From NCBI GenBank assembly GCA_016865015.1, contig CP018226.1:2759001-2823000 (forward strand): a stretch of DNA of 64,000 nucleotides, in the 5' to 3' direction. The position numbers were made by a program, and so were the translations under genes. This document shows, one piece after another, positions 30,534 through 57,582 of the stretch (positions within the stretch are counted from its first letter, which is position 1; each line of letters starts with the position of its first letter). The notes under the pieces were generated by a model. That model was given only the letters and a program-made list of their open reading frames with translations. It did no database searches and had not been told where the DNA came from. The stretch comes from Rhizobiales bacterium IMCC20636 (GTDB lineage Bacteria > Pseudomonadota > Alphaproteobacteria > Rhizobiales > GCA-2746425).

Positions 30534-31607
30534 TTACCCTGACTTATCGAAATGTCTCACCAATTCTTCTGTCACATCTCTTGTGGTGGCCTGCCCGCCC
30601 ATATCACGGGTGTAAGGTCCGGTCGCGCAGATCTCTTCAATACCGCTCATCAATATTTCGGCTGATTTCTTCTCGCCCAGGTGTTCCAGCATCAGCACCG
30701 CAGACCAGAAGGCACCCACGGGATTTGCGACACCCTTCCCTACAATATCAAAGGCGGTTCCATGGATCGGCTCGAACATTGAGGGCGCTTGTTTTTCCGG
30801 GTTGAGATTGGCCGTTGCACCATTTCCAAGGCTGCCAGTCAAAGCGGATGCGAGATCTGACAGAATGTCTGCATGCAGATTGGTGGCAAGAATTGTATCG
30901 TGGTCAGATGGGCTGGTCACCATGCTTGCAGCCATGGCGTCAACCAGCATCCACTTGACTTCAAGTTCTGGATACTCGGAGGAGACCGATTTGCACACTT
31001 CATCCCACAGTACCATGCCATGACGCTGCGCGTTCGACTTCGTCACAATTGTCAGTGTCTTGCGCGGGCGGCGGCTTGCCAGTTCGCAGGCAAACCGCGC
31101 AATGCGCTGTATTCCCTCACGCGTGAACACAGCGATATCCATCGCCAGTTCGAGCGGCAAACCGGAGTGGGCGCGCCCGCCTACACCTGAATATTCTCCT
31201 TCAGAGTTTTCACGCACAATGACCCAGTCAATCTGCTCGCCCAGTTCTACGCGCAAAGGGCCGCGCATACCAGGCAGAAGCCGGGTTGGCCGAACATTGG
31301 CATATTGGTCGAGCCCCTGACATATCGCGAGTCTGAGATCCCACAAGGTGATATGGTCGGGAATGTCGCGGTCACCAACAGCGCCGAATAAAATCGCGTC
31401 ATAAGGCCGCAAGGTGTCGACACCGTCTTCCGGCATCATCCGTCCTGTGCGCCGATAATAGTCAGAGCCCCAATCAAAGCTGTCCACTTCAAAAGACACG
31501 CCACCGTCAAGCTGTGCAACTTTTTCGAGCACCTCCAGAGTGGCGCTTGTGACTTCCGGGCCAACGCCATCACCGCCGATGGCTGCAATACGGTGAATGC
31601 GCGTCAT
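30534..31607 (-). CDS. Tartrate / D-malate dehydrogenase-family enzyme (isopropylmalate dehydrogenase fold)
   Basis: A 357-residue NAD-dependent beta-decarboxylating dehydrogenase. AAIGGDGVGPEV starts the fold. The stretch FDWGSDYYRRTGRMMPEDG and the PDHITLW segment (DIPDHITLWDL) are typical of tartrate dehydrogenase/decarboxylase and D-malate dehydrogenase (TDH/DmlA). The substrate Arg sits in NVRPTRLLPG, and the acidic metal site is in NLHADILSDLA. It would oxidise a 2-hydroxy acid with loss of CO2. The chosen ATG overlaps the stop of the upstream dehydrogenase gene by four bases. It is the last gene of the six-gene minus-strand operon. Confidence 0.85.
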   Translation of the reverse strand: MTRIHRIAAIGGDGVGPEVTSATLEVLEKVAQLDGGVSFEVDSFDWGSDYYRRTGRMMPEDGVDTLRPYDAILFGAVGDRDIPDHITLWDLRLAICQGLDQYANVRPTRLLPGMRGPLRVELGEQIDWVIVRENSEGEYSGVGGRAHSGLPLELAMDIAVFTREGIQRIARFACELASRRPRKTLTIVTKSNAQRHGMVLWDEVCKSVSSEYPELEVKWMLVDAMAASMVTSPSDHDTILATNLHADILSDLASALTGSLGNGATANLNPEKQAPSMFEPIHGTAFDIVGKGVANPVGAFWSAVLMLEHLGEKKSAEILMSGIEEICATGPYTRDMGGQATTRDVTEELVRHFDKSG

Positions 31608-32683
31608 GACTTCATCCCATCCAGAATGCCCTGCACCATTTGCGATTGGGACGCAGTGCCGCAAATATCAGGCGTGCGCGTATCCGGCGAGGCCAGTGCT
31701 GCATCGATCCCACGCTTCATGATGTTTGACATCGACAACGCGGCTGGAAGGCCACGGTTGTGCCCAAGCCAGTCAAACAGCATTCGGGTTGATTCAATCA
31801 TTGCGAATGGATTGGCGATGTCCTTGCCGGCAATGTCAGGCGCTGACCCATGGGTTGCCTGCGCCATGGCGATAGCGCCGCGTCCAATGCATAGACCTGG
31901 TGCCATACCCAATCCGCCAACAAGGCCTGCAGCCTCGTCAGTCAGGATATCGCCAAACATATTGGTCGTGACGACCGTATCAAAGCTCTGTGGATCGCGG
32001 ACCAGGCGCATAGCCATCGTGTCGACGATGACTTCATCCACCACGACATCGGGGAAATCCTTGGCGACCTCATAACAGGTATCGACAAACATACCGCACC
32101 CCAGTTTGTAGACCGTGTTCTTGTGAACAAGTGTCAGGCGTTTCTTGCGGGAGCGCGCAATTTCGAACGCTGCGCGTGCCACTTTTGCCGAACCTTCCGT
32201 CGTGATGACCCGCACTGAAATCGTCACATCATGGGTCGGGCGAAACTCTCCGGACCCCATCACCACATTCCGGTCTGGCTGAAAGCCCTCATTGTTTTCG
32301 CGAACGATGACCAGATCGATGTCATCGTGAAGGCATCCGATATCCGGAAAGGAACGTGTGGGACGGACATTGGCAAACAGGTCAAATGTCTTGCGCAGGA
32401 TTGGATGCGGATTGATCGCCTCGGGCACCTTTGGATACTCTCTGTGACCAATCGGGCCGAGTATCCAGCCATCAAGGGTTTTCAGTGTCTCCAGCGTTCC
32501 ATCAGGCATTGTGTGGCCATGGTCATCAAGTGCCTTGCGCCCGATCGGCACATCCACCCATTCGATTTTCTGACCGGCCATCTGTGCAGCAGCTTTAGCG
32601 GTTTTCACGGACGCAGGAACAACCTCGTGGCCGATGTCGTCGCCTTCCAGAATCCCGATTTTCAAGACATGTTCGGCGCTCAT
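31604..32683 (-). CDS. Isocitrate/isopropylmalate dehydrogenase-family protein
   Basis: A second beta-decarboxylating dehydrogenase of 359 residues, only distantly like its neighbour. Motifs: GILEGDDIGHEVVP at the N-terminus, ANVRPTRSFP for substrate binding, VRENNEGF, the catalytic Lys in VHKNTVYKLG, the acidic metal site NMFGDILTDEAAGL, and HGSAPDIAGKDIANP that holds NAD. Members act on malate-type acids with different side chains, including tricarboxylates such as isocitrate and homoisocitrate. The exact acid is unknown. Its start overlaps the upstream MmgE/PrpD gene by four bases. Confidence 0.82.
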   Translation of the reverse strand: MSAEHVLKIGILEGDDIGHEVVPASVKTAKAAAQMAGQKIEWVDVPIGRKALDDHGHTMPDGTLETLKTLDGWILGPIGHREYPKVPEAINPHPILRKTFDLFANVRPTRSFPDIGCLHDDIDLVIVRENNEGFQPDRNVVMGSGEFRPTHDVTISVRVITTEGSAKVARAAFEIARSRKKRLTLVHKNTVYKLGCGMFVDTCYEVAKDFPDVVVDEVIVDTMAMRLVRDPQSFDTVVTTNMFGDILTDEAAGLVGGLGMAPGLCIGRGAIAMAQATHGSAPDIAGKDIANPFAMIESTRMLFDWLGHNRGLPAALSMSNIMKRGIDAALASPDTRTPDICGTASQSQMVQGILDGMKS

Positions 32684-34074
32684 GCTGCAGTCACCGATTC
32701 AGGCTGATCGACAGCAGAAACGCGAGCGACTTCGCCGACATCTGAAAGGGTTGGTGTTCTCCATGCCACGTCGAGCAGCGCTGCCGTTTTTTCGTCGCCT
32801 ATAACCAGTGTTGACTGATCTGAAAACTTTCGGTTGATCTGATCGTCGGTCAGGGGAACATCACGGCTACCAAGCGCACGTTCGATGTGTTTTTGCATGG
32901 TTGAACCATCTTTGAAGCGAATTTCGATATCAACGGATGCTGAATGGCAATCCGCGCTTGCGGTTGCCGAGATATTATCGCGAAGGGTCACAATCTCGGG
33001 CAGGTTCACTACTTCATCGGTGAAAGCGGTCGGAGCTCCGTCGCCCCGCAAAAGCGCACAGGCAGCAGAATGGAAGACACTGAACTTGCCTTCCAGACCA
33101 GTCTTTGGCTCACGCTTTCCAGTGAGTTCCAGAACAAGCGGATGCACAATGAGGTGCACACTTTCAATATCGTTGACGCGATCACCAATTTCGTCGCGGA
33201 TCTGAATGCAGCCATCAATCGAAGGATGGATCACGATGCCGCAAGCGAAAGGCTTGTAGCTGTTCAATTCAGCTTCCCAGCGGCTGCCAAGTTCACCGAC
33301 GATCTCATCCCAGTCCTGCTTGTCCGACATGACGCAGGCGAACCCACGTGGGGCCTCCAGCACGCGCTCAGAGCTATCAAATCCTGCTTTCGCCAGCAAT
33401 GCGCTCGCCAAGCCATTTTGTGCCGCGCGCCCGGGGTGGAAGCTCTTTGTCATGGTGCCGAACATTTCGCGGAACCCTGAAGACTGGGTTCCAGCCAGGC
33501 CAAAGGCCCAGCGCATCTGCTGTTTTGACAAGCCCAGAAGCTTGCCAGCCGCTGCAGCAGCTCCGAATACACCTGCAGTGCCGGTGATGTGCCACCCACG
33601 ATCATAATGGTCGGGATATACACAATTACCGATCCGGCATTCCACTTCGACACCAACAATCATGGCCGTCAGGAAATCATAACCACTCACCGGCATCTTT
33701 TCGGCAAGCGCAAGGATTGCTGATGCAACAGGCCCCGCCGGATGTATGATCGTTTTGAGATGCGTGTCATCATAGTCGAGCACATGGGATGAAATCCCGT
33801 TTAACAATGCTGCGTGCAAAGCGTCGAGACGCTCTGACCTGCCCATCACGGTTGATGTGGCGGGACCGCTGAATTCCATCAATCCCTTCAGAGCAGCATC
33901 TACCGTCTCGTGGCTTGCGCCGCCGACAGCACATCCAACCCAGTTGACAAATGTCCGCAGGCCCGCAGCGCGAACGTGTTCCGGGATATCCTCACCGCGG
34001 ATATCAATGATCCAGTCGGTCAGAATTTCGGTGACTTTTGGTGTTCCCGGCGGTGTTGCCTGATGTCCGGCCAT
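32680..34074 (-). CDS. MmgE/PrpD-family protein (copy 1)
   Basis: A 464-residue member of the family that includes 2-methylcitrate dehydratase and cis-aconitate decarboxylase, enzymes that act on tricarboxylates without a metal cluster. The key residues of the family pocket are kept: Asp100 and the DDT at 102-104, His111 (TIIHPAGP), His162 (GWHITGTAG) and Lys210 (GTMTKSFHPGRAAQNG). It sits between SDR and dehydrogenase genes of a tricarboxylate island. Whether it dehydrates, decarboxylates or isomerises is not predictable. It is one of four divergent copies in 23 kb. Confidence 0.85.
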   Translation of the reverse strand: MAGHQATPPGTPKVTEILTDWIIDIRGEDIPEHVRAAGLRTFVNWVGCAVGGASHETVDAALKGLMEFSGPATSTVMGRSERLDALHAALLNGISSHVLDYDDTHLKTIIHPAGPVASAILALAEKMPVSGYDFLTAMIVGVEVECRIGNCVYPDHYDRGWHITGTAGVFGAAAAAGKLLGLSKQQMRWAFGLAGTQSSGFREMFGTMTKSFHPGRAAQNGLASALLAKAGFDSSERVLEAPRGFACVMSDKQDWDEIVGELGSRWEAELNSYKPFACGIVIHPSIDGCIQIRDEIGDRVNDIESVHLIVHPLVLELTGKREPKTGLEGKFSVFHSAACALLRGDGAPTAFTDEVVNLPEIVTLRDNISATASADCHSASVDIEIRFKDGSTMQKHIERALGSRDVPLTDDQINRKFSDQSTLVIGDEKTAALLDVAWRTPTLSDVGEVARVSAVDQPESVTAA

Positions 34075-34083
34075 ATTTATCTC

Positions 34084-34872
34084 CTAAAGCAATCCACGGG
34101 CAATTCCACCGTCCACATTGACGGCCTGCCCTGTTATATAACTGGCCATTGGGCTGGCCAACCAGGCCACCATAACCGCGACTTCTTCCGGCTCTGCAAA
34201 ACGGCCCAGCGGGATTTCTTCCGAAAACCGCGCGAGTATGTCGCTGCGGTTCTTTCCTTCTTCTGCAGCCATCTTGTCTGCACGATTGGTCCACAGCGGC
34301 GTCAGGGTTCGCCCCGGCGCTACGCAATTCACGCGGATATTCCTGTCCGCCAGTTCGACGGCAAGTGTCTTTGTCAGGCCAAGCAAACCGGCCTTGTGCA
34401 CGTTGGATACGATCTGGTGCTGATAGGGCATTTTTGATGCCGCGGCACCCAGGGTTACAATCGCCGGGTTCTCGCCTTTTTCCAGAAGTGGCAGCAATGC
34501 GCGGATCGCCCGCACATTGGACAAAACGTTGAATGAGTAGTTTTGAAGCCAATCATCGTCGCTCAGATCTTCAAACGAAGACCGTATGCTGCCACCCACG
34601 GCCGTCACCAGCACATCCAGACCGGACCACATCTCGGCCACTTTGGCATGAAGCTCATCGCCGGCACCCGACTGGGTGATATCGCACACGATTGTCTCTG
34701 GCGTGGTGCCAACCAGCGCAACGCTGTCAGCAGCCTTGGCCAGATTTGCCGCACTGCGCGAGGCGATGGCTGTTTTAGCGCCCTCAGCAGCCATGATCCG
34801 GGCAGAAGCCTGGCCAATGCCATAGCTCCCCCCAATGATCAGAGCACGGCGGTTGTTATATCCGAGGTCCAT
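34084..34872 (-). CDS. Short-chain dehydrogenase/reductase-like protein lacking the catalytic Tyr (copy 1)
   Basis: A 262-residue SDR with the nucleotide motif IGGSYGIG and a C-terminal SPMASYITGQAVNVDGG typical of classical SDRs. The active-site Tyr of the YxxxK pair is replaced: the region reads VSNVHKAG with Lys160 kept and Ser156 at the Tyr position, and the upstream catalytic Ser position holds Ala. The protein may therefore not be an ordinary oxidoreductase. It overlaps the AbrB-type membrane gene by 17 bases. The plus-strand operon encodes a second SDR next to an AbrB gene with the same loss. Confidence 0.85.
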   Translation of the reverse strand: MDLGYNNRRALIIGGSYGIGQASARIMAAEGAKTAIASRSAANLAKAADSVALVGTTPETIVCDITQSGAGDELHAKVAEMWSGLDVLVTAVGGSIRSSFEDLSDDDWLQNYSFNVLSNVRAIRALLPLLEKGENPAIVTLGAAASKMPYQHQIVSNVHKAGLLGLTKTLAVELADRNIRVNCVAPGRTLTPLWTNRADKMAAEEGKNRSDILARFSEEIPLGRFAEPEEVAVMVAWLASPMASYITGQAVNVDGGIARGLL

Positions 34873-35974
34873 TGTCTCCCCCTATTATGAAACGGCGATA
34901 AAAACGAAATACGAGTAGAACGGTTGATGAGATAATAGCGATGCGCACAACATGAAATGCGCTGACAATTTCCGCATCAAGGTGCATCAGTTTTGCGGTC
35001 AAAACCATTTCCGTGATGGCCGCTGGCGCAAGCGACAGAAAGCTTGTCGTATATGGCAATTGGGTCGCAGCAGACAGGACCAGAGAGCCGACAGCGGCGC
35101 ACATAAGCATGAACAATGCGATGACAACAGCTGCCGCAGAGACACGCGGCAATTTGGCAATCATCTCGCGCTTGAACAGAGCACCAAGCCAGGTTCCCAG
35201 CATTATTTGAGCGAGGATTATGACAGGTGCCGGTACGGAAATTTCAAAAACGCCGGTCAAACCGATCAGCAGACCGGCAAAAATAGGCCCCACAAGCCAT
35301 GGGTTGGGAAGAGGAGTCGGCTTCAAGGCAAGCGCAACAAACCAGGCAAAGATCATCCCGGCTGCGAGCGTCCAATAGGTGCCAGCCCCGGTTGCCGTAT
35401 TGAAAACCGCATCACCCGGTTGGCCAAACAATGTGACGGCCAGCGGAACAATGGCAACCACGCAGGAGACGCGCATCGCATGTACAATAGCAACGGATGA
35501 CGGTTCGCCACCAAACCGTTCGGAAACATGCGCCATGTCTGCCACACCACCAGCGGCCGTCGCGAAAAAGGCGGTGACAGAATCGACCTTCGCCAGGATT
35601 TTGAAAAGATATGCGGCAACCAAAGTGAACGCCATGATGTAAAGCGCGCTCAGTATCATGGCCGGCACCAGTGAAGCAGTCGCAAGCAGCATCGGCAGCG
35701 TGAACCGAATGCCGATTGCCAGACCGATGGCAACCTGAGCCAACTCGCGCCCCATGGGAATGACGCGGGCACTCACTCCGGTAACGGACAGGACCGAGAT
35801 ACAAAAGAACGGCCCAAGCATCCAAGGCAAGGGCATGCCCGTACGGCTCGCAGCAAAACCGGCGACAACAGCAAGGGCGTAAGTGCGCAAAACGATAGGC
35901 AGATCCATCGCCGCAGCCCTCAACAGGCTGCGGATTCGGTCCGATCGATCACTCTTTTTGCCTTGCTCCGACAT
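34856..35974 (-). CDS. AbrB-type (AmoA/PF05145) multi-spanning membrane protein (copy 1)
   Basis: A 372-residue protein with about ten hydrophobic segments in two similar halves. Each half starts with a pattern like MPLPWMLGPFF or PNPWLVGPIFAG and ends with ATAAGGVADMAHVSERFG or LAPAAITEMVLTAKLM, the duplicated AbrB domain misleadingly annotated as ammonia monooxygenase or AbrB regulator. It is more likely a transporter or exporter. Its gene is embedded between SDR and MmgE/PrpD genes, and a second copy sits in the plus-strand operon in the same company, so it probably moves the same class of organic acid. Confidence 0.78.
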   Translation of the reverse strand: MSEQGKKSDRSDRIRSLLRAAAMDLPIVLRTYALAVVAGFAASRTGMPLPWMLGPFFCISVLSVTGVSARVIPMGRELAQVAIGLAIGIRFTLPMLLATASLVPAMILSALYIMAFTLVAAYLFKILAKVDSVTAFFATAAGGVADMAHVSERFGGEPSSVAIVHAMRVSCVVAIVPLAVTLFGQPGDAVFNTATGAGTYWTLAAGMIFAWFVALALKPTPLPNPWLVGPIFAGLLIGLTGVFEISVPAPVIILAQIMLGTWLGALFKREMIAKLPRVSAAAVVIALFMLMCAAVGSLVLSAATQLPYTTSFLSLAPAAITEMVLTAKLMHLDAEIVSAFHVVRIAIISSTVLLVFRFYRRFIIGGDNGPRI

Positions 35975-35993: not shown

Positions 35994-37433
35994 TCACAGC
36001 CGCAGCAACGCCATCAGATGGTCAATATTGTCCTGCTTTTCGAAATTTGCGACAATATCGATGATTTCATCAGCCTTCGACCTATCCCAATTTGCAAAGT
36101 CTGCACATTCGCAGAACTTGTTGGAAACTTCGTCGTAACTCATTGGGTTGGCGGGGCTTCCTTTCCCGAAATCAGCTTTGCCGCTGATAGTTGTACCGTC
36201 CTTAAGCAGGATATCAATGTAGGCCGTCATGAGGTGATAACCGGCAGCTTCCGCGCGGTCATCAATCACGAAATCCACTTTGGTCAACATGGTCTGAACA
36301 TCGTCTTGCATGACACGCTCGTCAGTGAACTCGGCCAGCCCCGCCCTACCCTCTATCAGGAGGATCGCCATGCAGAACTCCATCGAGAACTTGGCCTGCA
36401 ATTCGTTTTGCGGCCGGTGATGGATTAGCGCGTTTGGCATGTTCGAATTCGTTCCAACGCGGACATGTTCTACATTTTCAGCCCTGATATCGTTTTCAAC
36501 AATCAGTCGCAGCATCTCGGTCATTCCCGGATGCGTGAGTGACCCTGATGGGTGTGGCTTGATCGAGATGCCCGGAACATCGAAGGTCCAGGGTGCGCCG
36601 AGCTTTCCGTCAATCGCAGAATGATCGTAGCCGCCGCCAGCAGCCGCGAAAAAGCCCCGTGGCGCTTCAAGGATTGTGTCTGCTGCCGTCCAGCCATAGG
36701 ATGCAAATTGCGCGGCTACAACGCCACTCTCCGAGGATCGTCCAGCATGAAACGGTTTGGTCATCGTGCCGAAATTTTCACGAAGGCCCGCTGACTGGCT
36801 GCCAGCTATGGAAAGCGCGCGGCAGAGTGTCTCATTGTCAAAACCCATGAGTTTCGACGCTGCAGAGGCTGCTGCAAATGTTCCGCAGGTCGCGGTTGCG
36901 TGAAAGCCTGTCTGGTAATGGCGTGGATTAATTGCCTCAGCAATCTTGCACTCGACTTCAACGCCCAAATGGTACGCCAGCATCACATTTGCGCCAGACG
37001 ATCCCAACACTTCGCCCATCGCCAGGGCGGCAGGCAGCGCTGGTGCTGTTGGATGTGTCAAAAGTCCGTAAACCCGATCATTCGCGACGGCTAGCTGTGT
37101 GTCATCATAATCATCAGCGTGGATTCCCACACCATTGGCGAAGGCGGCAAAGCGTGGGGCGACCTTGCGGTTGGACCCAATCACTGTGGCCGCGCCATCG
37201 GCCAGCCCGGCATCAGCCAAATGCTGTCTCACATATTCGCCAGATTTAGCGACCGAACCCGACAAAGCCAGCCCGATACCATCAAGAATGCTCTTTTTAC
37301 CATTCTCGACGACGATATCCGGCAGATCAGAAATCGCAGCTTTTTGCACAAAGTCTGCAACATTTCGAGTGAGACCACTATCGGCATGCAGCGCATGGGC
37401 CGGGCGTTGAGCATTAGCGGGAACGGAACTCAT
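35994..37433 (-). CDS. MmgE/PrpD-family protein (copy 2)
   Basis: A 479-residue member of the methylcitrate dehydratase / aconitate decarboxylase family. Family pocket residues: Asp108 and DDT at 110-112, His127 after an insert (DRVYGLLTHPTAPA), His178 (GFHATATCG) and Lys226 (GTMTKPFHAGRSSESG). It shares the DDTQL insert and the CKIAEAINP segment with copy 4, so these two are closer to each other than to copies 1 and 3. A good ribosome binding site (GGAGG) precedes the ATG used here; an upstream extension of 31 codons has none. It is the first gene of the minus-strand operon, behind a GntR-type operator. Confidence 0.85.
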   Translation of the reverse strand: MSSVPANAQRPAHALHADSGLTRNVADFVQKAAISDLPDIVVENGKKSILDGIGLALSGSVAKSGEYVRQHLADAGLADGAATVIGSNRKVAPRFAAFANGVGIHADDYDDTQLAVANDRVYGLLTHPTAPALPAALAMGEVLGSSGANVMLAYHLGVEVECKIAEAINPRHYQTGFHATATCGTFAAASAASKLMGFDNETLCRALSIAGSQSAGLRENFGTMTKPFHAGRSSESGVVAAQFASYGWTAADTILEAPRGFFAAAGGGYDHSAIDGKLGAPWTFDVPGISIKPHPSGSLTHPGMTEMLRLIVENDIRAENVEHVRVGTNSNMPNALIHHRPQNELQAKFSMEFCMAILLIEGRAGLAEFTDERVMQDDVQTMLTKVDFVIDDRAEAAGYHLMTAYIDILLKDGTTISGKADFGKGSPANPMSYDEVSNKFCECADFANWDRSKADEIIDIVANFEKQDNIDHLMALLRL

Positions 37434-37518
37434 AAATACCTCCAGAAAGAAACACGAACCGCACGTTGAAGCCTCAAGTGCGAACAAGTTATTTGCGAGA
37501 TAGGCCAATATCTTGTCT

Positions 37519-37529
37519 ATTGTCAACAG
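37519..37529 (-). promoter_or_regulatory. Putative GntR operator for the six-gene minus-strand operon
   Basis: ATTGTCAACAG carries the core TTGT-CA-ACAG, one base off the TTGT-NN-ACAA palindrome. It lies 86 bases upstream of the MmgE/PrpD copy 2 start. Site 2 of five; the weakest match. Confidence 0.5.
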
Positions 37530-37690: not shown

Positions 37691-37770
37691 TTTTCGACAC
37701 TTAGCCTCGCATCGGGAGAAACGGCATAGACGCCAGCGTCTGCCAAATGAAGTCCACGTGGAGGAAAATC

Positions 37771-38763: not shown

Positions 38764-38783
38764 TCTGCATTCGCAATAATCTC

Positions 38784-38810
38784 GGACGGCACGCACGAAG
38801 CGTGCCGTCC
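38784..38810 (+). terminator. Hairpin between tctC-1 and tctB-1
   Basis: A perfect 11-bp stem (GGACGGCACGC / GCGTGCCGTCC) with a 5-base loop and no T-run. Such hairpins after receptor genes usually stabilise or partly terminate the message, giving an excess of binding protein. A similar one occurs in the second tct operon. Confidence 0.65.
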
Positions 38811-38842
38811 GTCTATTGGTTGTGTATTTGAGGATATTGTCT

Positions 38843-39316: not shown

Positions 39317-39323
39317 GTGGACG

Positions 39324-40888: not shown

Positions 40889-40912
40889 CCTGCCCGCACC
40901 AATCAGGGCAGG
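40889..40912. terminator. Hairpin between the convergent tctA-1 and rhodanese genes
   Basis: A 7-bp stem CCTGCCC / GGGCAGG with a 10-base loop that also covers the stop codon of the rhodanese gene. There is no T-run, so it is only a weak candidate for a bidirectional terminator. Confidence 0.35.
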
Positions 40913-44653: not shown

Positions 44654-44728
44654 AAGGAATAGCATCTCGCTCAGCTCCAGATATTAGGCATTTTGCCGGG
44701 GCAGACGAATGCAATGGGAGGAAATACT

Positions 44729-45673: not shown

Positions 45674-45683
45674 TGTCTTGATT

Positions 45684-45705
45684 GGTGCCCGGGACACCGG
45701 GCACC
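45684..45705 (+). terminator. Hairpin between tctC-2 and tctB-2
   Basis: A perfect 9-bp stem (GGTGCCCGG / CCGGGCACC) with a 4-base loop GACA, no T-run. Same position as in system 1 but a different sequence. Confidence 0.65.
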
Positions 45706-45740
45706 ATATTTCCAAACCAGACTGAATCTAGGAGACACAA

Positions 45741-46223: not shown

Positions 46224-46261
46224 GAAATCTTCAGTTTCGGAAAACGTAAAAGGATATTTTG

Positions 46262-49904: not shown

Positions 49905-50944
49905 AGCTTTCGACCTATGCATCACGCGCCATGGGCCTGGCCGCATCCGCCATAACCGGATGGCTGTTCACGGTGCTGGGCGTTCCTCTGGGCTGGATTC
50001 TGGGCGCGATGTTTGGCAGCGCGGTCTACGCCAACATATTTGGAATTGAGGGCAAGACGCGCAATATCAGGCGGTCGGGCCAGCTGCTGATTGGAGTGGC
50101 GACCGCGGGTGTGTTGACGCCGGACATCCTCAACACGATTTTTGGCCTGCTGCCCGCGATGATCGCTGCTGCTCTTGCGGCCAATGTCATCGGTCTGGCT
50201 TTGGCCTGGCCTCTGGGTAAAATGGCTGGCATTGACCGGATGACCGCACTGTTGTCATCGCTACCAGCGGGAATGGCCGAGATGTCTTCCCTGGCCAGAG
50301 ATGTTGGGGCGCGGGCGGATATCGTGACCATCGTGCACACTTTGCGTGTCATCATTGTCGTACTGATGGTTCCTGCACTGATTGCGACAACCGCGTTTCA
50401 TCCGGTGACCGCTGACGCAAGCAACGGCACCTATACTGCACTTTTGATATGCTTCATCGGCGGAACGTTGCTTGCCATCGGCGCAACACGCCTCAACCTT
50501 CTCAATCCGTTTATCATCATGCCGATGGTTCTGGGTCCTATTTTTGTGTCTGCAGGTTTTCCCATTGCCCGCATGCCGGATGCCCTCCTCATTGCCGCAC
50601 AGATCTTTATCGGGTTCTCGCTTGGTACTCGTTTACGTCGTGAAGGTTTTTTGAAATTGCCGCGTGCAGCACTGGCAGGTCTCATCTGCGGCACAGCACT
50701 GATCGCCATGATGGTATTTGTGGTCGCTCCGCTCATCGCACGCTGGACCGGCAGTGACCCGACCGCGGTCATGCTGGGAACAGCTCCGGGTGGATTGGGA
50801 GAAATGATCGCATCCGCCAAAGTGGTTGGCGCATCGGCAGCCATCGTTGCGGGCTTCCAGTTTGTGCGATCCTTTCTAACCAATATGATTGTGCCGCCAC
50901 TGATCATCCGACTCGGCAAACCCAATAATGGAGGACATGCATGA
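49901..50944 (+). CDS. AbrB-type (AmoA/PF05145) multi-spanning membrane protein (copy 2)
   Basis: A 347-residue membrane protein with two repeated halves of the AbrB domain: GVPLGWILGAMFGSAVYANI with LPAGMAEMSSLARDVGARAD, and later FIIMPMVLGPIFVSAGFP with TAPGGLGEMIASAKVVGASA. It probably transports an organic acid or intermediate. It is clearly a paralogue of the minus-strand copy and again sits beside an SDR. Overlaps of four bases with both neighbours place it firmly inside the operon. Confidence 0.78.
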   Translation: MKLSTYASRAMGLAASAITGWLFTVLGVPLGWILGAMFGSAVYANIFGIEGKTRNIRRSGQLLIGVATAGVLTPDILNTIFGLLPAMIAAALAANVIGLALAWPLGKMAGIDRMTALLSSLPAGMAEMSSLARDVGARADIVTIVHTLRVIIVVLMVPALIATTAFHPVTADASNGTYTALLICFIGGTLLAIGATRLNLLNPFIIMPMVLGPIFVSAGFPIARMPDALLIAAQIFIGFSLGTRLRREGFLKLPRAALAGLICGTALIAMMVFVVAPLIARWTGSDPTAVMLGTAPGGLGEMIASAKVVGASAAIVAGFQFVRSFLTNMIVPPLIIRLGKPNNGGHA

Positions 50945-52110
50945 AGATCGTTGAAATAAGGGAAGCTGTTGCCTCAATCGCTTCGCCCATCCGGAACGCC
51001 TATATCGATTTTTCCAAAATGAATGTGAGCGTTGTTGCCGTTGTGACAGATGTCATCAGGGATGGGAAACCCGTGATAGGCTACGGCTTCAATTCCAACG
51101 GACGCTATGCTGCCAGCGGATTGTTGAATGAACGCTTCCTGCCGCGTCTGCGGGAAGCCGGGGCTGATGCCTTGCTGAGTGATTCAGGCGAAAACCTGGA
51201 CCCGCACAAAATCTGGTCGGTGATGATGCAGAATGAAAAGCCGGGCGGCCATGGGGAACGCTCGGTCGCTGTTGGAGTCGTCGACATGGCGATATGGGAT
51301 GCGGTTGCCAAGATTGAAGGCGTCCCTCTCTGGCGTCATCTTGCAGATAATTATGGTGACGGGACAGCCGATGACAGTGTGTTTGTCTACGCGGCTGGCG
51401 GTTACTATTATCCCGGCAAGGACGACAGCAAGCTGCAAGAAGAAATGCGACGCTATCGCGGCATGGGCTATGAAGTCGTCAAAATGAAAATCGGTGGGGC
51501 GTCACTGGAAGAAGATTTGCGCCGCATCGAAGCGGTTCTGGAAATTGTCGGTGACGGCAAGAATCTTGCGGTTGATGCCAATGGCCGTTTCGATCTTGAA
51601 ACCGCGATCCGCTATGGCGAAGCCATGAGCCAGTACGGCCTGTTCTGGTATGAAGAGGCCGGTGATCCGCTGGACTATCAATTACAGGCAGAACTGGCCA
51701 AAACTTATGCAGGTCCGATGGCCACCGGTGAAAACCTGTTTTCGCATCAGGATGCCAGAAACCTTGTGCGCCATGGCGGGATGCGGGCTGACCGGGACTG
51801 GCTGCAATTCGACTGCGTGCTCAGCTACGGGCTTGTTGAATATTTGCGCACACTGGAAGCGATAGGGGCCGAAGGCTTTTCGAGCCGCAACTGCATTCCA
51901 CACGGTGGACACCAATTATCACTGAACATCGCAGCCGGTTTGAAACTGGGCGGCAATGAATCCTATCCGGAAGTCTTCAAACCGTTTGGCGGATTTGCCG
52001 ATGATATCTCGGTCAACAATGGCCGTGTCAGCCTTCCTGACAGTCCCGGCATCGGCTTTGAGAAAAAAGCTGCGCTGATTGCCGAAATGTGCCGGGTCAC
52101 TGAAACCTGA
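50941..52110 (+). CDS. tarD: D(-)-tartrate dehydratase-like enolase-superfamily enzyme
   Basis: A 389-residue protein closely resembling D-tartrate dehydratase from Bradyrhizobium, which turns D-tartrate into oxaloacetate. The shared features, from memory of that protein, are PIRNAYIDFSKM, YGFNSNGRYA, NEKPGGHGERSVAVG and AAGGYYYPGK. The catalytic set is complete: the KMK pair (181-183), metal ligands Asp212, Glu238 or 239 and Glu264 (ATGENLFSH), and His321/His324 (PHGGHQLSLN). It follows the AbrB gene with a four-base overlap. Oxaloacetate formation would explain how a tartrate-like acid enters central metabolism. Confidence 0.85.
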   Translation: MKIVEIREAVASIASPIRNAYIDFSKMNVSVVAVVTDVIRDGKPVIGYGFNSNGRYAASGLLNERFLPRLREAGADALLSDSGENLDPHKIWSVMMQNEKPGGHGERSVAVGVVDMAIWDAVAKIEGVPLWRHLADNYGDGTADDSVFVYAAGGYYYPGKDDSKLQEEMRRYRGMGYEVVKMKIGGASLEEDLRRIEAVLEIVGDGKNLAVDANGRFDLETAIRYGEAMSQYGLFWYEEAGDPLDYQLQAELAKTYAGPMATGENLFSHQDARNLVRHGGMRADRDWLQFDCVLSYGLVEYLRTLEAIGAEGFSSRNCIPHGGHQLSLNIAAGLKLGGNESYPEVFKPFGGFADDISVNNGRVSLPDSPGIGFEKKAALIAEMCRVTET

Positions 52111-53291
52111 TGGGGACCGATATGTTGGGATCTGAAACCAACCTGGAAGAGATCAACGAAATCCGTCGGTCGGTCGCATCCCTGTGCGGAAAATTCAGCC
52201 CGGAATATTGGCGCGAACTAGATCGCGAACGGGCATACCCGACAGATTTCGTCGACGCGATGACGAAAGCCGGGTTTCTCTCGGTCCTCATTCCCGAAGA
52301 ATATGGCGGGGTCGGCCAGGGCCTGACAGTCGCTGCGAATATTCTGGAAGAGGTCCATGCCAATGGTGCCAACGCCGCAGCCCTGCACGCCCAAATGTAC
52401 ACGATGGGCACGCTTCTGCGTCACGGTTCGCAAGAGCAAAAAGACAAGTGGCTGCCAAAGATTGCAAGCGGCGACTTGCGGCTTCAGGCATTCGGAGTGA
52501 CCGAGCCTGCTGCCGGAACAGATACGACATCCATCACGACATATGCCAGGCGCGATGGTGATCAATACGTCATCAACGGACAGAAAGTGTGGACGTCTCG
52601 CGCCGAACATTCCGATTTGATGATCCTGTTGGCTCGCACACAAAAGAAGGAAGAAACGACGCGCAAGAGCGAAGGCATGTCGGTGTTTCTGATTGATATG
52701 CGCGAGGCTGTTGGCAAGGGCATGACGATCAAGCCGATCCGGACGATGCTCAATCATGCAACGACAGAAGTCTTTTTTGACAATCTGGCAATACCCGCAA
52801 GCGCCTTGATCGGCGAAGAGGGAAAAGGCTTTCGCTATATCCTGGATGGTATGAATGCAGAGCGTATTCTGATCGCTGCCGAATGCGTTGGTGATGCCAA
52901 ATGGTTCACCGAAAAATCCACCTCCTATGCAAATGAACGCGTCGTTTTCGGCAAACCAATCGGAACCAATCAGGGGGTTCAGTTTCCAATCGCGCGCGCA
53001 TTCGCAGAAGCCCAGGCAGCGCGCCTCATGGTTTATGCTGCGGCTGCAAAATTCGATGCTGGCGAGGCTTGTGGTCCCGAAGCGAACATGGCGAAACTGC
53101 TGGCATCTGAAGCATCCTGGAAAGCTGCCGACACCTGTTTGCAAACATATGGCGGTTTCGGTTTTGCCGAAGAATATGATGTCGAGCGCAAGTTTCGCGA
53201 AACGCGGCTTTATCAGGTCGCACCTGTCTCAACGAATTTGATCCTTTCATATCTTGGAGAGCATGTCCTTGGCATGCCGCGTTCCTATTGA
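52110..53291 (+). CDS. Acyl-CoA dehydrogenase family protein
   Basis: A 393-residue flavoenzyme that would desaturate an acyl-CoA. The FAD/substrate loop AFGVTEPAAGTDTTSI, the WTSRAEHSDLM segment, and the C-terminal TYGGFGFAEEYDVERKFRETR, which holds the usual catalytic glutamate region, are all present. The start codon overlaps the last base of the previous stop. The gene opens a block (acyl-CoA dehydrogenase, CoA-transferase, MmgE/PrpD, MaoC, CitE-like) with the same families as the itaconate operon of Pseudomonas aeruginosa. Confidence 0.93.
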   Translation: MGTDMLGSETNLEEINEIRRSVASLCGKFSPEYWRELDRERAYPTDFVDAMTKAGFLSVLIPEEYGGVGQGLTVAANILEEVHANGANAAALHAQMYTMGTLLRHGSQEQKDKWLPKIASGDLRLQAFGVTEPAAGTDTTSITTYARRDGDQYVINGQKVWTSRAEHSDLMILLARTQKKEETTRKSEGMSVFLIDMREAVGKGMTIKPIRTMLNHATTEVFFDNLAIPASALIGEEGKGFRYILDGMNAERILIAAECVGDAKWFTEKSTSYANERVVFGKPIGTNQGVQFPIARAFAEAQAARLMVYAAAAKFDAGEACGPEANMAKLLASEASWKAADTCLQTYGGFGFAEEYDVERKFRETRLYQVAPVSTNLILSYLGEHVLGMPRSY

Positions 53292-53299
53292 GGTCATCC

Positions 53300-54439
53300 A
53301 TGTTAGATCGCCCCTATCAAGACATACTGGTCGTATCGGTCGAACAAGCTGTCGCTGCGCCCTATTGCAGCTGCAAGCTGGCGGATGCAGGCGCTCGGGT
53401 CATCAAGGTGGAACGCCCTGAAGGTGACTTTGCACGTCGTTACGATACGGCTGCGGCTGGAAATGCATCCTATTTTGTATGGCTCAATCGCGGCAAGGAA
53501 TCGATTTCCCTCGATCTGAAAAAAACCGAGGATTTTGATATCTTCATGTCCATAGTGGCTGACGCCGATGTGTTGATCCAGAATCTTGCGCCCGGCGCCC
53601 TTTCGCGTATCGGCGCAGACACCACTACGCTTCGCCTGCAAAACCCACAGCTTATCATTTGCAACATTTCCGGTTATGGCGAGGATGGGCCAAACGCCAG
53701 CAAGAAGGCCTATGACCTTCTGGTACAGGCAGAGGCTGGGCTGGCATCGATCACCGGAACGCAGGATGCGCCTGCCCGAGTCGGCATTTCGATATGCGAC
53801 ATCGCAACAGGCATGTTTGCTTACAGCGCTATTCTTGAGGCTCTCGCCGCACGGGTAAAAACCGGCGATGGTGCCGTCATAGATGTATCCATGTTTGACG
53901 CGATTGCCGACTGGATGGCAGTCCCCTTGTTACAGACCCAGAACAGCGGCCAGGAACCGGCACGCATGGGACTGCATCACCCATCCATCGCGCCCTATGG
54001 TGCTTATGCCTGCAAAGACGGGGTCGAAGTTCTGATCTCCATTCAAAATGAACGCGAATGGCTGCGGTTTTGCGAAATCGTCCTGCGACGACCACAGATC
54101 GCCAGCGACAACCGGTTTGTCAACCCTGGGGGCCGTGTGGATAACAGAAATGCCCTGGATGAGGTCATAAAGGCCGTTTTTGGTGCTGCATCGCGCGACA
54201 CCATCATCCAGCGGCTTGAGGAAGCCTCGATCGCCTATGCCAAGGTGAATACGGTGCAGGAACTGGCGAAGCACCCAACTTTGAAAACCTTCACCGTGTT
54301 GAACGATCAGGGTCATCCGGTTGACCTGCCTCAACCAGCGGCGCGGTTTCGCGATACGGCAAGAACCTACCGTGACGTGCCCGCTTTGAACGCTGATGGC
54401 GCACGTATTCGCGCCGAATTTTCAAACACCACTGAATGA
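53300..54439 (+). CDS. CaiB/BaiF (family III) CoA-transferase, candidate itaconate CoA-transferase
   Basis: A 379-residue enzyme that moves CoA from a donor acyl-CoA to a carboxylic acid. Typical features are DILVVSVEQAVAAPYCSCKL, VERPEGDFARRYD, LNRGKESISLDLK, and the catalytic Asp in ICDIATGMFAYSAIL. The gene order with a MaoC hydratase and a CitE-like lyase is that of itaconate degradation, where this family makes itaconyl-CoA from succinyl-CoA. The ATG follows a GAGG site eight bases after the previous stop. The acid specificity is an inference from context. Confidence 0.85.
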   Translation: MLDRPYQDILVVSVEQAVAAPYCSCKLADAGARVIKVERPEGDFARRYDTAAAGNASYFVWLNRGKESISLDLKKTEDFDIFMSIVADADVLIQNLAPGALSRIGADTTTLRLQNPQLIICNISGYGEDGPNASKKAYDLLVQAEAGLASITGTQDAPARVGISICDIATGMFAYSAILEALAARVKTGDGAVIDVSMFDAIADWMAVPLLQTQNSGQEPARMGLHHPSIAPYGAYACKDGVEVLISIQNEREWLRFCEIVLRRPQIASDNRFVNPGGRVDNRNALDEVIKAVFGAASRDTIIQRLEEASIAYAKVNTVQELAKHPTLKTFTVLNDQGHPVDLPQPAARFRDTARTYRDVPALNADGARIRAEFSNTTE

Positions 54440-54452
54440 AACGGACACCTTC

Positions 54453-55907
54453 ATGACATCAAGCGCCGATACCACAAACAGCTGGGATCATCTCAGTGGA
54501 CTGACACAAGCGGCGGCACGATTCACCGCACAGCACACCTTTGTCGAACTGGACGGTGATACGCTGCATCTGGCAAAACGCTGTGTGATGGATGGTCTTG
54601 CGGTTGCACTTGCGGGTTCTGAACAGCCCGGCATGAAGCCGATCAGGCAATATATCGATTCGCTTGGCGGCACGCCGCAGGCCCATATGCTCGGTGCGAG
54701 CAGCACCCGCGTTCCCGCCCATCTGGCAGCACTTTGGGCTGGCACAGCCGGTCATGCAATGGATTGGGACGATACGCAATTGGCCGAAGGACCCGGTCGA
54801 CCATACGGTCTGCTCATGCATCCGACAATGCCGCCGCTTGTCGCAGCGCTTGTGCTGGCCGATCAGGTGGCAATGGAAAGCGGCGAGCCGGTCAGCGGCA
54901 AACGGTTCCTGACCGCGTTCACTGCTGGATTTGAAACAGGCTGCAAGATCGCCGAGGCGATCAACCCTGATCACTATATGCGTGGCTTTCACACATCAGG
55001 CACCATCGGCACATTTGCGGCTGCCTCAGCCGCCGCAAATGTGCTTCAATTGGATGAGGAAGCCAGCGCACGCGCGCTCGGCATGGCAGCCTCAATGGCA
55101 TCGGGCATCCGCGCCGGGTTTGGCACAATGACAAAGCCCATGCATGTCGGTCGAGCTGCCGAAAACGGTGTCACTGCCGCATTGTTGGCCAGACTGGGCA
55201 TGTCATCCAATGACGAGGCTCTGGATGGCCGTTGGGGCTATCTGGCCATAGCCGGTCCGGGTGGTGAGCCCGACCTCGTGCGCGACCGCTTTGGCAAACC
55301 GCATACGATGCTCTCACCCGGTGTCAGCATAAAGCCCTACCCGTCCGGTGTTCTGACCCACCCCAGCATGGATGCAATGCTTTTCCTGATGCGCGAAAAC
55401 GAGTTGTCGGCCAGCGATATCAAGAGTGTGACGCTAAAGGCTGGCAGCAATGTGCTTGGTCCAATCCGGTATCACATCGCAAAAACCGAATTGGAGGGCA
55501 AATTCAGCTTCGCGTTTCTCTTGGCGGCGATCATTCTCGCAGGGCGTGCCGGCAAAGCCGAGTTTACCGACGAATTCGTATCATCGGCGGAGTGTCAGGC
55601 CATGCAGTCGCGGATAGAAACCGAATTTGATCAGACGATCGAGGATATGGGCTGGGATCGTATCCGTTCAAAGATTGTCGTTGAGACGCTCGATGGCCGG
55701 GTTATCGAGCGCTGGGCCGATGAAAACTACCGAGGCAGCCCGCACAATCCGTTGAGCGACCGCGAGCTTGAGGGCAAATTCCGTGACTGCGCCAAAGGGC
55801 TGATTCCGGATGACCGTCTGGAACAGATATTTTCGATGATCTGGTCACTGGACGAGAGCGAAGATGTCTCTGGCCTGCTTGCTCTTCTTGACTGGCAGAC
55901 GCCATGA
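54453..55907 (+). CDS. MmgE/PrpD-family protein (copy 4)
   Basis: A 484-residue member of the methylcitrate dehydratase / aconitate decarboxylase family. Pocket residues: Asp104 and DDT at 106-108, His123 (GRPYGLLMHPTMPP), His180 (GFHTSGTIG) and Lys228 (GTMTKPMHVGRAAENG). It shares the DDTQL insert and CKIAEAINP with copy 2. In P. aeruginosa an MmgE/PrpD gene also lies in the itaconate operon, so this copy may act on itaconate or its precursor. The ATG is 13 bases after the CoA-transferase stop; a start 19 codons upstream overlaps that gene. The MaoC gene overlaps its end. Confidence 0.85.
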   Translation: MTSSADTTNSWDHLSGLTQAAARFTAQHTFVELDGDTLHLAKRCVMDGLAVALAGSEQPGMKPIRQYIDSLGGTPQAHMLGASSTRVPAHLAALWAGTAGHAMDWDDTQLAEGPGRPYGLLMHPTMPPLVAALVLADQVAMESGEPVSGKRFLTAFTAGFETGCKIAEAINPDHYMRGFHTSGTIGTFAAASAAANVLQLDEEASARALGMAASMASGIRAGFGTMTKPMHVGRAAENGVTAALLARLGMSSNDEALDGRWGYLAIAGPGGEPDLVRDRFGKPHTMLSPGVSIKPYPSGVLTHPSMDAMLFLMRENELSASDIKSVTLKAGSNVLGPIRYHIAKTELEGKFSFAFLLAAIILAGRAGKAEFTDEFVSSAECQAMQSRIETEFDQTIEDMGWDRIRSKIVVETLDGRVIERWADENYRGSPHNPLSDRELEGKFRDCAKGLIPDDRLEQIFSMIWSLDESEDVSGLLALLDWQTP

Positions 55908-56713
55908 ACCACGCGATAGAGGATGGGCATGATCAAGCAGATTTCAGCCGTGCTCAGCGTCTGCAAAACCTGCTCTCAGAACCCAGGACACTATCGCCAG
56001 ATGATCCCCTGCCGCCACTTTTCCACTGGCTGCACTTTCCAACAGATACGCGCCTCGGTGATTTGGGGCCGGACGGGCACCCCCGGCGTGACAGCACCGG
56101 CCCCGGTGCAAATCTGCCGCGCCGGATGTGGGCTGGAAGCACTGTCCAGTTTCTCAAACCGGTGCGCCATGGGGCACAACTCAAGCGGACCAGTCACATT
56201 GAAGATGTGAGCGAAAAGGATGGTAAGTCGGGACAACTCTGCTTCGTCACCATCGTGCATCAAATTGAGGCTGACGATGAAATTGCTGTCGTCGAAAACC
56301 AGCAAATTGTCTACCGCAGTGCACCGCAACCCGGTGAAATTCCAACAATTGAAAAGCCTCAGAAAGAGGCAACCAGCATTGAGACCATGGAGCCGGGCCC
56401 GGTCATGCTGTTTCGCTATTCCGCGCTGACCTATAATAGTCACCGGATCCACTATGACCGGCCTTATGCGACCGAGGTGGAAGGATATCAGGGCCTCGTG
56501 GTACATGGTCCGCTTGTTGCAACCATGCTGTTGGATTTGGCTATGAAGCGCGCAGACAATATGAAACCCGCCTCCTTTTCGTTTCGCGCCAAGGCACCTT
56601 TGTTTGACACGATTCCATTTACGATTTGTGCGGGTAGACCGGCAGCGGAAATGGATGTGTGGGCGCTGACTCCCAGTGGGAACATCGCCCTGTCAGCCAA
56701 GGTTATTTTCTGA
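55904..56713 (+). CDS. MaoC/FAS1-like hydratase, candidate itaconyl-CoA / mesaconyl-CoA hydratase
   Basis: A 269-residue double-hot-dog protein. The N-terminal half is a FAS1-type domain (PRRMWAGSTVQFLKPVRHG). The C-terminal half bears the hydratase motif LFRYSALTYNSHRIHYDRPY with its catalytic Asp/His region, then GYQGLVVHGPLVATM. This layout is that of mesaconyl-C4-CoA hydratase and itaconyl-CoA hydratase, which add water to give citramalyl-CoA. The position between a CoA-transferase and a CitE-like lyase supports that role. It overlaps the lyase start by one base. Confidence 0.85.
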   Translation: MNHAIEDGHDQADFSRAQRLQNLLSEPRTLSPDDPLPPLFHWLHFPTDTRLGDLGPDGHPRRDSTGPGANLPRRMWAGSTVQFLKPVRHGAQLKRTSHIEDVSEKDGKSGQLCFVTIVHQIEADDEIAVVENQQIVYRSAPQPGEIPTIEKPQKEATSIETMEPGPVMLFRYSALTYNSHRIHYDRPYATEVEGYQGLVVHGPLVATMLLDLAMKRADNMKPASFSFRAKAPLFDTIPFTICAGRPAAEMDVWALTPSGNIALSAKVIF

Positions 56714-57582
56714 TGATGGTCACCGAACAAACCCTTTTTGTCGGCTTGCGCTCAATCCTGTTCGTGCCTGCAGACAGGCCCGACCTGCTTGCCAAAGCTG
56801 CTGCGGGTGACGCCGACGCAGTCTGCATCGATTTGGAAGATGCTGTTTCCCCCGATGCAAAAATGGATGCACGCCGGGCCATAGGAGATGCTGGAGATAT
56901 AGCGCGATCTGGCGGAAAAAGAGTTTTCATACGGATCAATAATGAGCCTGATTTGGTCGAGGCTGATTTGGCAGTTGCCACAAATGCAGGTGATGCCATC
57001 GTGTTTCCAAAAGCAGGCTCACCGACAGAATGTGCGCAGTTGAAAGCCCGCCTTGAGCATCATCAAAAGTCAAGTGAACGCTGCCCTGCCCTTGTTGCTC
57101 AGGTGGAAACAGCAGCCGGTCTCTTGCTGTTTGCCAACGAGAAAATTGGCTCGCTCGCCGAGGTGGTCGACGCGCTGACAATCGGCACCGAAGATCTTTC
57201 AGAAAATTTGAACTGCAATCCGGATGCCAGCCCCGTTCGAACGGGTTTCGACATGCTGGCCATCGCAGCAAGCGCAAGCGACATCCCACTTTTTGGGTTT
57301 CCAGGATCAATTTCAGAATTTACCGATCTGGATCGCTTCAGGCGCGACGTGGAATCTGGCAAACAGGCAGGTGCCAGTGGTGCATTTTGCATTCATCCCA
57401 GGCAAGTTGGGGTCATCAACGAAATGTTCACGCCGGCTGACCATGAAATCAACGAAGCACGCAAAATTGTTGACGCGTTTGAGACGGCAATGGCGAGACA
57501 AGCTGGGGCAATCAAGCTCGACGGAAGGATGATTGATCGTCCGGTTTATTTGAGAGCTCTGGCGGTTCTGAAATCCAGGTGA
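56713..57582 (+). CDS. CitE-like CoA-ester lyase, candidate citramalyl-CoA lyase
   Basis: A 289-residue HpcH/HpaI-CitE barrel enzyme. The metal and substrate residues are visible in RSILFVPADRPDLL, VCIDLEDAVSPD, RINNEP, VFPKAGS, QVETAAGLL and GFPGSISEF, with the C-terminal AFCIHPRQVGVIN of CitE-type lyases. In the itaconate route the enzyme splits (S)-citramalyl-CoA into pyruvate and acetyl-CoA. The start overlaps the MaoC stop (TGATG). It is the last gene of the long operon; 224 empty bases follow. Confidence 0.87.
   Translation: MMVTEQTLFVGLRSILFVPADRPDLLAKAAAGDADAVCIDLEDAVSPDAKMDARRAIGDAGDIARSGGKRVFIRINNEPDLVEADLAVATNAGDAIVFPKAGSPTECAQLKARLEHHQKSSERCPALVAQVETAAGLLLFANEKIGSLAEVVDALTIGTEDLSENLNCNPDASPVRTGFDMLAIAASASDIPLFGFPGSISEFTDLDRFRRDVESGKQAGASGAFCIHPRQVGVINEMFTPADHEINEARKIVDAFETAMARQAGAIKLDGRMIDRPVYLRALAVLKSR

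Follow-up and report, generated by a model that had tools for sequence, protein, structure and literature searches.

A candidate catabolic island for tartrate-like C4 dicarboxylates in Rhizobiales bacterium IMCC20636

We analyzed a stretch of 64,000 nucleotides from the genome of Rhizobiales bacterium IMCC20636 (assembly GCA_016865015.1, contig CP018226.1, positions 2,759,001 to 2,823,000), here called the window, which carries a large set of catabolic genes at window positions 29,789 to 57,582. On balance, we take this set to be a catabolic island that has spread horizontally and acts on 2,3-substituted, tartrate-type C4 dicarboxylates, to which a C5 CoA branch of the methylsuccinate/itaconate type is optionally joined. 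The gene set, its conserved order elsewhere, and the family of each enzyme are established by the sequences; from these we infer the growth substrate, the epimerase role of the MmgE/PrpD proteins, and whether an epoxide or a halide is attacked.

A first-pass annotation of the window had described a 27-kb block with four MmgE/PrpD genes, two TctABC transporters, two short-chain dehydrogenases (SDRs), two AbrB-type membrane proteins, two enolase-superfamily enzymes, two enzymes of the Iso_dh family, and several genes of CoA metabolism. When 29 open reading frames (ORFs) of the window were scanned, every one of these families was present, in its place, as an intact ORF with a Pfam match. To them we add a four-stretch rhodanese and an alpha/beta hydrolase, both in the center of the block, and a GntR/FCD regulator. 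The genes are as follows.

29789-30508, minus strand: GntR/FCD transcriptional regulator at the left edge (Pfam FCD and GntR; relatives in 43 of the 80 loci described below)
30534-31664, minus strand: IDHa, hydroxyacid dehydrogenase of the tartrate dehydrogenase type (Iso_dh; TIGR02089)
31604-32683, minus strand: IDHb, second dehydrogenase of the Iso_dh family (Pfam)
32680-34074, minus strand: MmgA, MmgE/PrpD protein, predicted C2-epimerase (Pfam, clade, residues)
34084-34872, minus strand: SDRa, short-chain dehydrogenase (Pfam adh_short_C2)
34856-35974, minus strand: AbrBa, AbrB-type membrane protein (Pfam PF05145)
35994-37526, minus strand: MmgB, MmgE/PrpD protein, predicted C2-epimerase (2hp0 match, clade, residues)
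37747-40856, plus strand: TctC, TctB, and TctA of set a, tripartite carboxylate uptake (Pfam)
40903-42471, minus strand: Rhod, four-domain rhodanese (Pfam Rhodanese, four stretches)
42468-43406, minus strand: ABhyd, alpha/beta hydrolase, fluoroacetate dehalogenase relative (structure-sequence matches)
43483-44598, plus strand: ENOa, enolase-superfamily protein with a noncanonical active site (Pfam MR_MLE)
44693-47773, plus strand: TctC, TctB, and TctA of set b (Pfam)
47770-49155, plus strand: MmgC, MmgE/PrpD protein without the epimerase tyrosine (Pfam, clade)
49152-49904, plus strand: SDRb, short-chain dehydrogenase (Pfam)
49901-50944, plus strand: AbrBb, AbrB-type membrane protein (TIGR03082, 180.9 bits versus a cut-off of 94.7)
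50941-52110, plus strand: ENOb, D-tartrate dehydratase (TarD) ortholog, activity predicted (2dw7 and 4kem alignments)
52110-53291, plus strand: ACAD, acyl-CoA dehydrogenase like methylsuccinyl-C4-CoA dehydrogenase (65% to the Pseudomonas aeruginosa enzyme)
53288-54439, plus strand: CoAT, family III CoA-transferase like the itaconate/methylsuccinate enzyme (45% to Ict)
54396-55907, plus strand: MmgD, MmgE/PrpD protein, predicted C2-epimerase, core gene (clade, residues)
55904-56713, plus strand: MaoC, FAS1_DH/MaoC-like protein resembling itaconyl-/mesaconyl-CoA hydratase (FAS1_DH; 8khg)
56659-57582, plus strand: CitE, divergent acyl-CoA lyase of the CitE family (Pfam HpcH_HpaI)

The Rhod and ABhyd ORFs overlap by four bases. 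We divide the island, by a scheme of our own, into a core (ABhyd, Rhod, TctCBA-a, MmgB, AbrBa, SDRa, MmgA, IDHb, IDHa, and MmgD), a second module (ENOa, TctCBA-b, MmgC, SDRb, AbrBb, and ENOb), and a third, set around MmgD (ACAD, CoAT, MaoC, and CitE).

Tartrate-type enzymes and gene order in other genomes

ENOb could be aligned over almost all of its length with Bll6730 (2dw7; 582 bits), which we take to be the Bradyrhizobium D-tartrate dehydratase, and with 4kem (657 bits); its KMK and PHGGHQ motifs fall on the Lys-x-Lys and His positions of TarD. By sequence ENOb is a TarD ortholog, with D-tartrate dehydration as its predicted activity. IDHa scored 491.6 bits on the tartrate dehydrogenase model TIGR02089, above the curated cut-off of 470.4. 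The best-assigned enzymes of the island thus point to tartrate. IDHb passed the cut-off of no NCBIfam model, reaching 220 bits on TIGR02089. When placed by alignment with 3bjs, ENOa has Val and Asn at the second Lys and the His positions of the usual enolase-superfamily site, and both replacements were invariant wherever covered (17 of 17 and 16 of 16 orthologs).

The order of the genes, which the first-pass annotation thought worth comparing among genomes, proved to be conserved in part. A scan of genome contigs with ABhyd as the query gave 168 relatives, the best 80 of which define our loci, so that ABhyd is present in all of them by construction; the loci end about 10 kb from the hydrolase or at contig ends, and genes at the far ends are therefore undercounted. 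By title, the loci are from Alphaproteobacteria except for two from Achromobacter and one metagenome-assembled genome named only Proteobacteria. The 14-gene run from ENOb to MmgB was identical in order and strand in nine of the 80 loci, from Hoeflea (L050, L052, and L054), Rhizobium (L053, L055, and L056), Mesorhizobium (L065), and Chelativorans (L066 and L074), which argues that the grouping goes beyond chance. Median identities in these nine loci were 82% for ENOb, 81% for ABhyd and ENOa, 80% for TctAb and MmgB, 76% for TctAa and TctCb, 70% for MmgC, 64% for TctCa, 63% for SDRb, 56% for AbrBb, 51% for Rhod, 50% for TctBb, and 46% for TctBa.

Across all 80 loci, relatives of MmgB were found in 54, of Rhod in 51, of IDHb in 49, of MmgD in 13, of ENOb in 12, of ACAD in nine, of CoAT in seven, and of MaoC and CitE in one each. 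An additional ORF close to the hydrolase recurred in 38 loci; it has PdxA-family counterparts in two island flanks and is annotated as PdxA in two plasmids. Plasmids of Phyllobacterium and Neorhizobium carry genes for MmgE/PrpD, TctCBA, MmgE/PrpD, FabG, PdxA, tartrate dehydrogenase, the hydrolase, an Iso_dh-family protein, AbrB, and MmgE/PrpD, and their proteins reach 79% identity to those of the window. One locus (L170) has MmgB, IDHb, IDHa, ENOa, and ENOb consecutively, together with ABhyd. Among 385 sampled genomes of the class, nine, the window's own included, had an MmgB match at an E value of 1e-150 or better. A 1.2-Mb genome (L165) has an MmgB relative (58%) at positions 9565 to 11049, and an IDHb relative (41%) lies about 2 kb from it.

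Instead of one pathway, two or three separate ones could be traveling in company, namely, the core, the module with TctCBA-b, MmgC, and TarD, and the methylsuccinate CoA branch; we regard this as a real possibility, though one with less than an even chance. In L057 and L121 (Rhodobacteraceae), among other loci, the core occurs without the second module, and Phyllobacterium has TctCBA-b, MmgC, and SDRb plus IDHa. In Rhizobium albus (L148), a separate run at 1408 to 5983, about 5 kb from the island, holds a methylsuccinate isomerase relative (61%) and an ACAD (74% identity to that of the window) as well as CoAT and MaoC. However, the 14-gene block spans two modules in the same order and strand in nine loci of four genera, and L170 unites core and TarD genes in one run.

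That the single island we favor has spread horizontally is suggested by sequence identities. The host's rpoB is 79% identical to that of Hoeflea, 72% to that of Alkalilacustris, and 58% to that of Achromobacter, which places the host in the Alphaproteobacteria and rejects a gammaproteobacterial origin. In comparison with the Hoeflea locus L052, ENOb (85%), ABhyd (84%), ENOa (83%), TctAb (83%), ACAD (81%), and MmgB (80%) all exceed the rpoB value, and TctAa (78%), MmgA (76%), SDRa (74%), MmgC (74%), AbrBb (61%), and Rhod (51%) do not; with half of the 12 proteins above it, horizontal transfer is suggested but not proven. In four genomes of the same genus, MmgD had no match in three and a 29% match in one. 

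The island lies in a variable slot, window positions 23668 to 60964. Its borders are conserved in two sister genomes, G001 and G002: the genes of the right flank (within 60141 to 63955) are 88 to 95% identical, and the dihydrouridine synthase of the left flank is 85 to 86% identical. From the dihydrouridine synthase to the conserved gene at 60964, the distance is about 37 kb in the window, compared with about 51 kb in G001 and roughly 78 kb in G002. In the roughly 34 kb inward from the right anchor in each sister genome, a part of these intervals, there was no relative of a window ORF at an E value of 1e-20; as far as read, the slot carries other DNA in G001 and G002. Also within the slot, the best plasmid matches of the ORF at 24064 to 26637 are annotated as HWE histidine kinases of Alphaproteobacteria, and the ORF has a match (45%) in one of the four same-genus genomes. 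At the island's left edge, a major-facilitator ORF (29231 to 29908) overlaps the GntR ORF and spans only positions 16 to 214 of a 347-position profile; it is perhaps a truncated remnant.

The hydrolase and the MmgE/PrpD proteins

ABhyd matched Alr0039 (3qyj) with 283 bits and the fluoroacetate dehalogenases 3r3u and 9c9f with 251 to 255 bits. The eight active-site residues of fluoroacetate dehalogenase (Asp/Arg/Arg/Asp/His/Trp/Tyr/His) are present in the ABhyd of all 80 loci. ABhyd is predicted to open a C-X or epoxide bond adjoining a carboxylate. In the dehalogenase, Trp156 and Trp185 line the substrate pocket and Trp156 binds the halogen, according to an excerpt of PMC11465415. When ABhyd was aligned with 3r3u, Trp185 met a gap, and Tyr184, Lys185, and Lys188 of ABhyd are invariant; this arrangement would suit a larger, doubly charged substrate.

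The core may alternatively be a dehalogenation pathway, in which ABhyd would dehalogenate 2-halo-dicarboxylates (halosuccinate to malate), the MmgE/PrpD proteins would epimerize the halo- or hydroxyacid, and dehydrogenases of the D-malate/tartrate type would finish. Fluoroacetate dehalogenases are among the closest structures to ABhyd, and the residues found in 80 of 80 loci include the halide-stabilizing His, Trp, and Tyr. On the other hand, these residues would also be able to protonate an epoxide, a D-tartrate dehydratase encoded in the same run (L170) implies a diol, and natural halosuccinates are rare. We consider dehalogenation unlikely as the core's purpose.

For the MmgE/PrpD proteins we built a tree of 68 rows (63 of 164 relatives found, the four window copies, and the P. 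aeruginosa methylsuccinate isomerase, Msi); its deep joins, partly weak, were set aside. MmgA, MmgC, and MmgD fell into clades with support of 100/100 and MmgB into one of 100/99, each with orthologs from other islands. Msi is outside all four. The window copy most like it is MmgB (32%); MmgD had been a candidate for an Msi ortholog, which its 30% identity and separate clade rule out.

An excerpt of PMC12290011 describes the MmgE/PrpD family as poorly characterized, with four activities characterized, and proposes His, Tyr, and Lys residues for epimerization. Of the residues discussed there, three histidines and two lysines are present in all four window copies; all four have Asp where the isomerase has Glu91, and the epimerase tyrosine is present in MmgA, MmgB, and MmgD. 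The best Protein Data Bank match of MmgB was iminodisuccinate (IDS) epimerase (2hp0, 189 bits), versus 131 to 146 bits for cis-aconitate decarboxylase. On TIGR02330, the model of the 2-methylcitrate dehydratase PrpD (cut-off 458), MmgA, MmgB, and MmgC scored 36.3, 19.3, and 27.4 bits, and MmgD was not listed.

The CoA branch and other candidate substrates

The first-pass annotation had matched the block of acyl-CoA dehydrogenase, CoA-transferase, MmgE/PrpD, MaoC, and CitE-like genes to the P. aeruginosa itaconate operon. As the reference we used the itaconate/methylsuccinate cluster on a P. aeruginosa plasmid record; trees of ACAD, CoAT, and CitE were quick ones, without bootstrap, with support from the Shimodaira-Hasegawa-like approximate likelihood ratio test (SH-aLRT). 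According to an excerpt of PMC12290011, the MmgE/PrpD protein of the itaconate operon is a methylsuccinate isomerase and its acyl-CoA dehydrogenase a methylsuccinyl-C4-CoA dehydrogenase (Mcd). ACAD is 65% identical over 383 amino acids to Mcd and in the same clade (SH-aLRT 98), and CoAT is 45% identical to Ict, again in the same clade (SH-aLRT 99); by sequence they belong with Mcd and Ict, and the corresponding activities are predicted. MaoC is 42% identical to Ich and scored 193 bits with the itaconyl-CoA hydratase 8khg, but its similarity to other MaoC proteins is as high or higher (Azospirillum, 49%); its Pfam MaoC score of 23.9 bits is under the cut-off of 27, and an FAS1_DH match passes. 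The match holds for ACAD and CoAT and, as a relationship in which the Ich assignment is tentative, for MaoC; it fails for the block's MmgE/PrpD protein, MmgD.

CoAT is in the Ict clade. CitE, 31% identical to P. aeruginosa Ccl, is outside the Ccl clade (SH-aLRT 97), on a long branch of unsure place. On the RipC/Ccl model (cut-off 375), CitE scored 113 bits; this is not counted against Ccl because P. aeruginosa Ccl itself reached only 158. The cut-off was dropped as a test; of 297 genomes of the order, not one exceeded it. Among 11 neighborhoods of RipC-like matches in the same order, none held relatives of all five window proteins, and one (L136) held four. The P. aeruginosa plasmid record (L142; 847 kb, typed as conjugative) has TRAP transporter genes after its itaconate/methylsuccinate-type cluster.

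We compared 13 flanks around MmgD for CoA genes. ACAD and CoAT adjoin MmgD in seven of them (L146, L147, L149, L151, L152, L153, and L155), with a MaoC relative in five of these and a CitE relative in three (L147, L149, and L153). The CitE of these three, which are Rhizobium-group islands, belongs to the Ccl clade and occupies the same slot as the window's CitE, which favors the first-pass view of the CoA branch. MmgD has neither ACAD nor CoAT adjoining it in five flanks (L148, L150, L154, L156, and L157), and in L158 a few genes separate it from an ACAD and a CoAT that belong to a different lineage. In the order sample, the genome with the closest MmgD (G024, 61%) has relatives of ACAD, CoAT, and MaoC nearby, and no CitE relative near MmgD at an E value of 1e-6. 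By these comparisons the CoA genes form an optional insertion into a larger core, and MmgD, found with the core even where they are missing, is a core gene; its supposed place in an itaconate-type block is not supported. The separate isomerase run of L148 supports a methylsuccinate-type role for ACAD and shows MmgD to be something different.

It had also been proposed that the island imports a tricarboxylate, decarboxylates it with MmgE/PrpD enzymes to itaconate, and feeds the itaconyl-/citramalyl-CoA route. The relationships of ACAD, CoAT, and MaoC to Mcd, Ict, and Ich and the Ccl-clade protein in the CitE slot of three islands agree with such a route, and the MmgE/PrpD family includes cis-aconitate decarboxylase, which MmgB does match. 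We nevertheless judge the proposal improbable: MmgB is closer to IDS epimerase, three of the four MmgE/PrpD proteins keep the epimerase tyrosine, and five of the 13 islands examined lack the CoA genes next to MmgD. Nothing was found for either tricarboxylate import or aconitate decarboxylation, and the firmest assignments, D-tartrate dehydratase and tartrate dehydrogenase, would be left unexplained, as would the hydrolase.

Two of the four Rhod domains have a cysteine loop (CAGRTRG and CDTGLR), and a Rhod relative adjoins the hydrolase in most of the listed neighborhoods. A sulfur-containing dicarboxylate of the thio- or sulfosuccinate type, with the rhodanese handling released sulfur, would account for these loops and for the relatives in 51 loci, but it is very doubtful, because 29 of the 80 loci, some of them short, have no rhodanese and no thiol dioxygenase was found among the 29 window ORFs scanned (recurrent neighbors elsewhere were judged by eye only, not scanned).

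Proposed pathway and comparison with known systems

In the tartrate-type pathway that we propose, the two TctCBA systems would take up the acids. The aspartate nucleophile of ABhyd, beside two carboxylate-binding arginines, would hydrolyze the substituent adjoining a carboxylate, either an epoxide (e.g., epoxysuccinate) or a halide, to give hydroxy- or dihydroxysuccinate. MmgA, MmgB, and MmgD, as dicarboxylate epimerases with a His/Tyr two-base mechanism, may invert the configuration at C2. ENOb would dehydrate D-tartrate to oxaloacetate, and other stereoisomers would be oxidized or oxidatively decarboxylated by IDHa, IDHb, and the SDRs. Methyl-substituted homologues would pass through ACAD, CoAT, MaoC, and CitE as methylsuccinyl-, mesaconyl-, and citramalyl-CoA to pyruvate and acetyl-CoA.

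Several points weigh against this proposal. The activities of all island proteins are predictions. ENOb is in only 12 of the 80 loci, so that tartrate may be one of several substrates; ENOa, with its noncanonical site, is without a predicted reaction, and the rhodanese is without an explanation in the pathway. MmgC lacks the epimerase tyrosine, and because MmgE/PrpD enzymes also dehydrate and decarboxylate, epimerization is an analogy. Lys185 of ABhyd aligns with a lysine of the dehalogenase RPA1163, leaving Lys188 as the sole added charge, and the retained halide-binding His, Trp, and Tyr suit dehalogenation no less than epoxide hydrolysis. As for horizontal spread, the identities to Hoeflea of MmgA (76%), MmgC (74%), AbrBb (61%), and Rhod (51%) are below that of rpoB, and base composition does not flag the island as foreign (G+C of 0.543 versus 0.544 and 0.536; at third positions, 0.579 versus 0.611).

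More tentatively, the island might encode a pathway, not described before and spread horizontally, that degrades epoxy-, halo-, or hydroxysuccinates by means of a new dicarboxylate hydrolase from the fluoroacetate dehalogenase family and three new MmgE/PrpD epimerases (maybe including a tartrate epimerase); it might also hold a new type of active site within the enolase superfamily. A literature search found no paper on the whole gene combination. If the pathway is real, the MmgE/PrpD family would gain three new reaction assignments, a dicarboxylate-specific relative of fluoroacetate dehalogenase might be of use in C-X or epoxide chemistry, and there would be a genetic handle on the unusual dicarboxylic acids eaten by Alphaproteobacteria. 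The island also carries a warning: a run of acyl-CoA dehydrogenase, CoA-transferase, MmgE/PrpD, MaoC, and CitE genes need not be an itaconate operon.

The island resembles several known systems in part. The ich, mcd, msi, ict, and ccl cluster of P. aeruginosa and Cupriavidus necator (PMC12290011 and PMC9875883) shares with it ACAD (65%), CoAT (45%), MaoC (42%), and, within one run, genes of the MmgE/PrpD and CitE families; it differs in that Msi and MmgD belong to separate clades, that the identity of CitE is 31% and its position in the tree unsure, and that the island's CoA genes are an optional part of a larger core. IDS epimerase (2hp0) is the closest solved relative of MmgB, and the pattern of catalytic residues is present, but no IDS lyase was found among the window ORFs scanned, and in MmgB and MmgD the loop ahead of the catalytic histidine is longer. 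ABhyd has the nucleophile, arginines, acid, base, and halide residues of the fluoroacetate dehalogenase RPA1163 (3r3u), but Trp185 is gapped and Tyr184, Lys185, and Lys188 are invariant, Lys185 being shared with RPA1163. In the tartrate dehydrogenase family TIGR02089, IDHa is above the cut-off, whereas IDHb is not a member. ENOb is like the D-tartrate dehydratase named from Bradyrhizobium (excerpt of PMC10079672) over nearly its full length, at 582 bits and with the motifs present; unlike that enzyme, it sits in a multienzyme island with epimerase-like and hydrolase genes.

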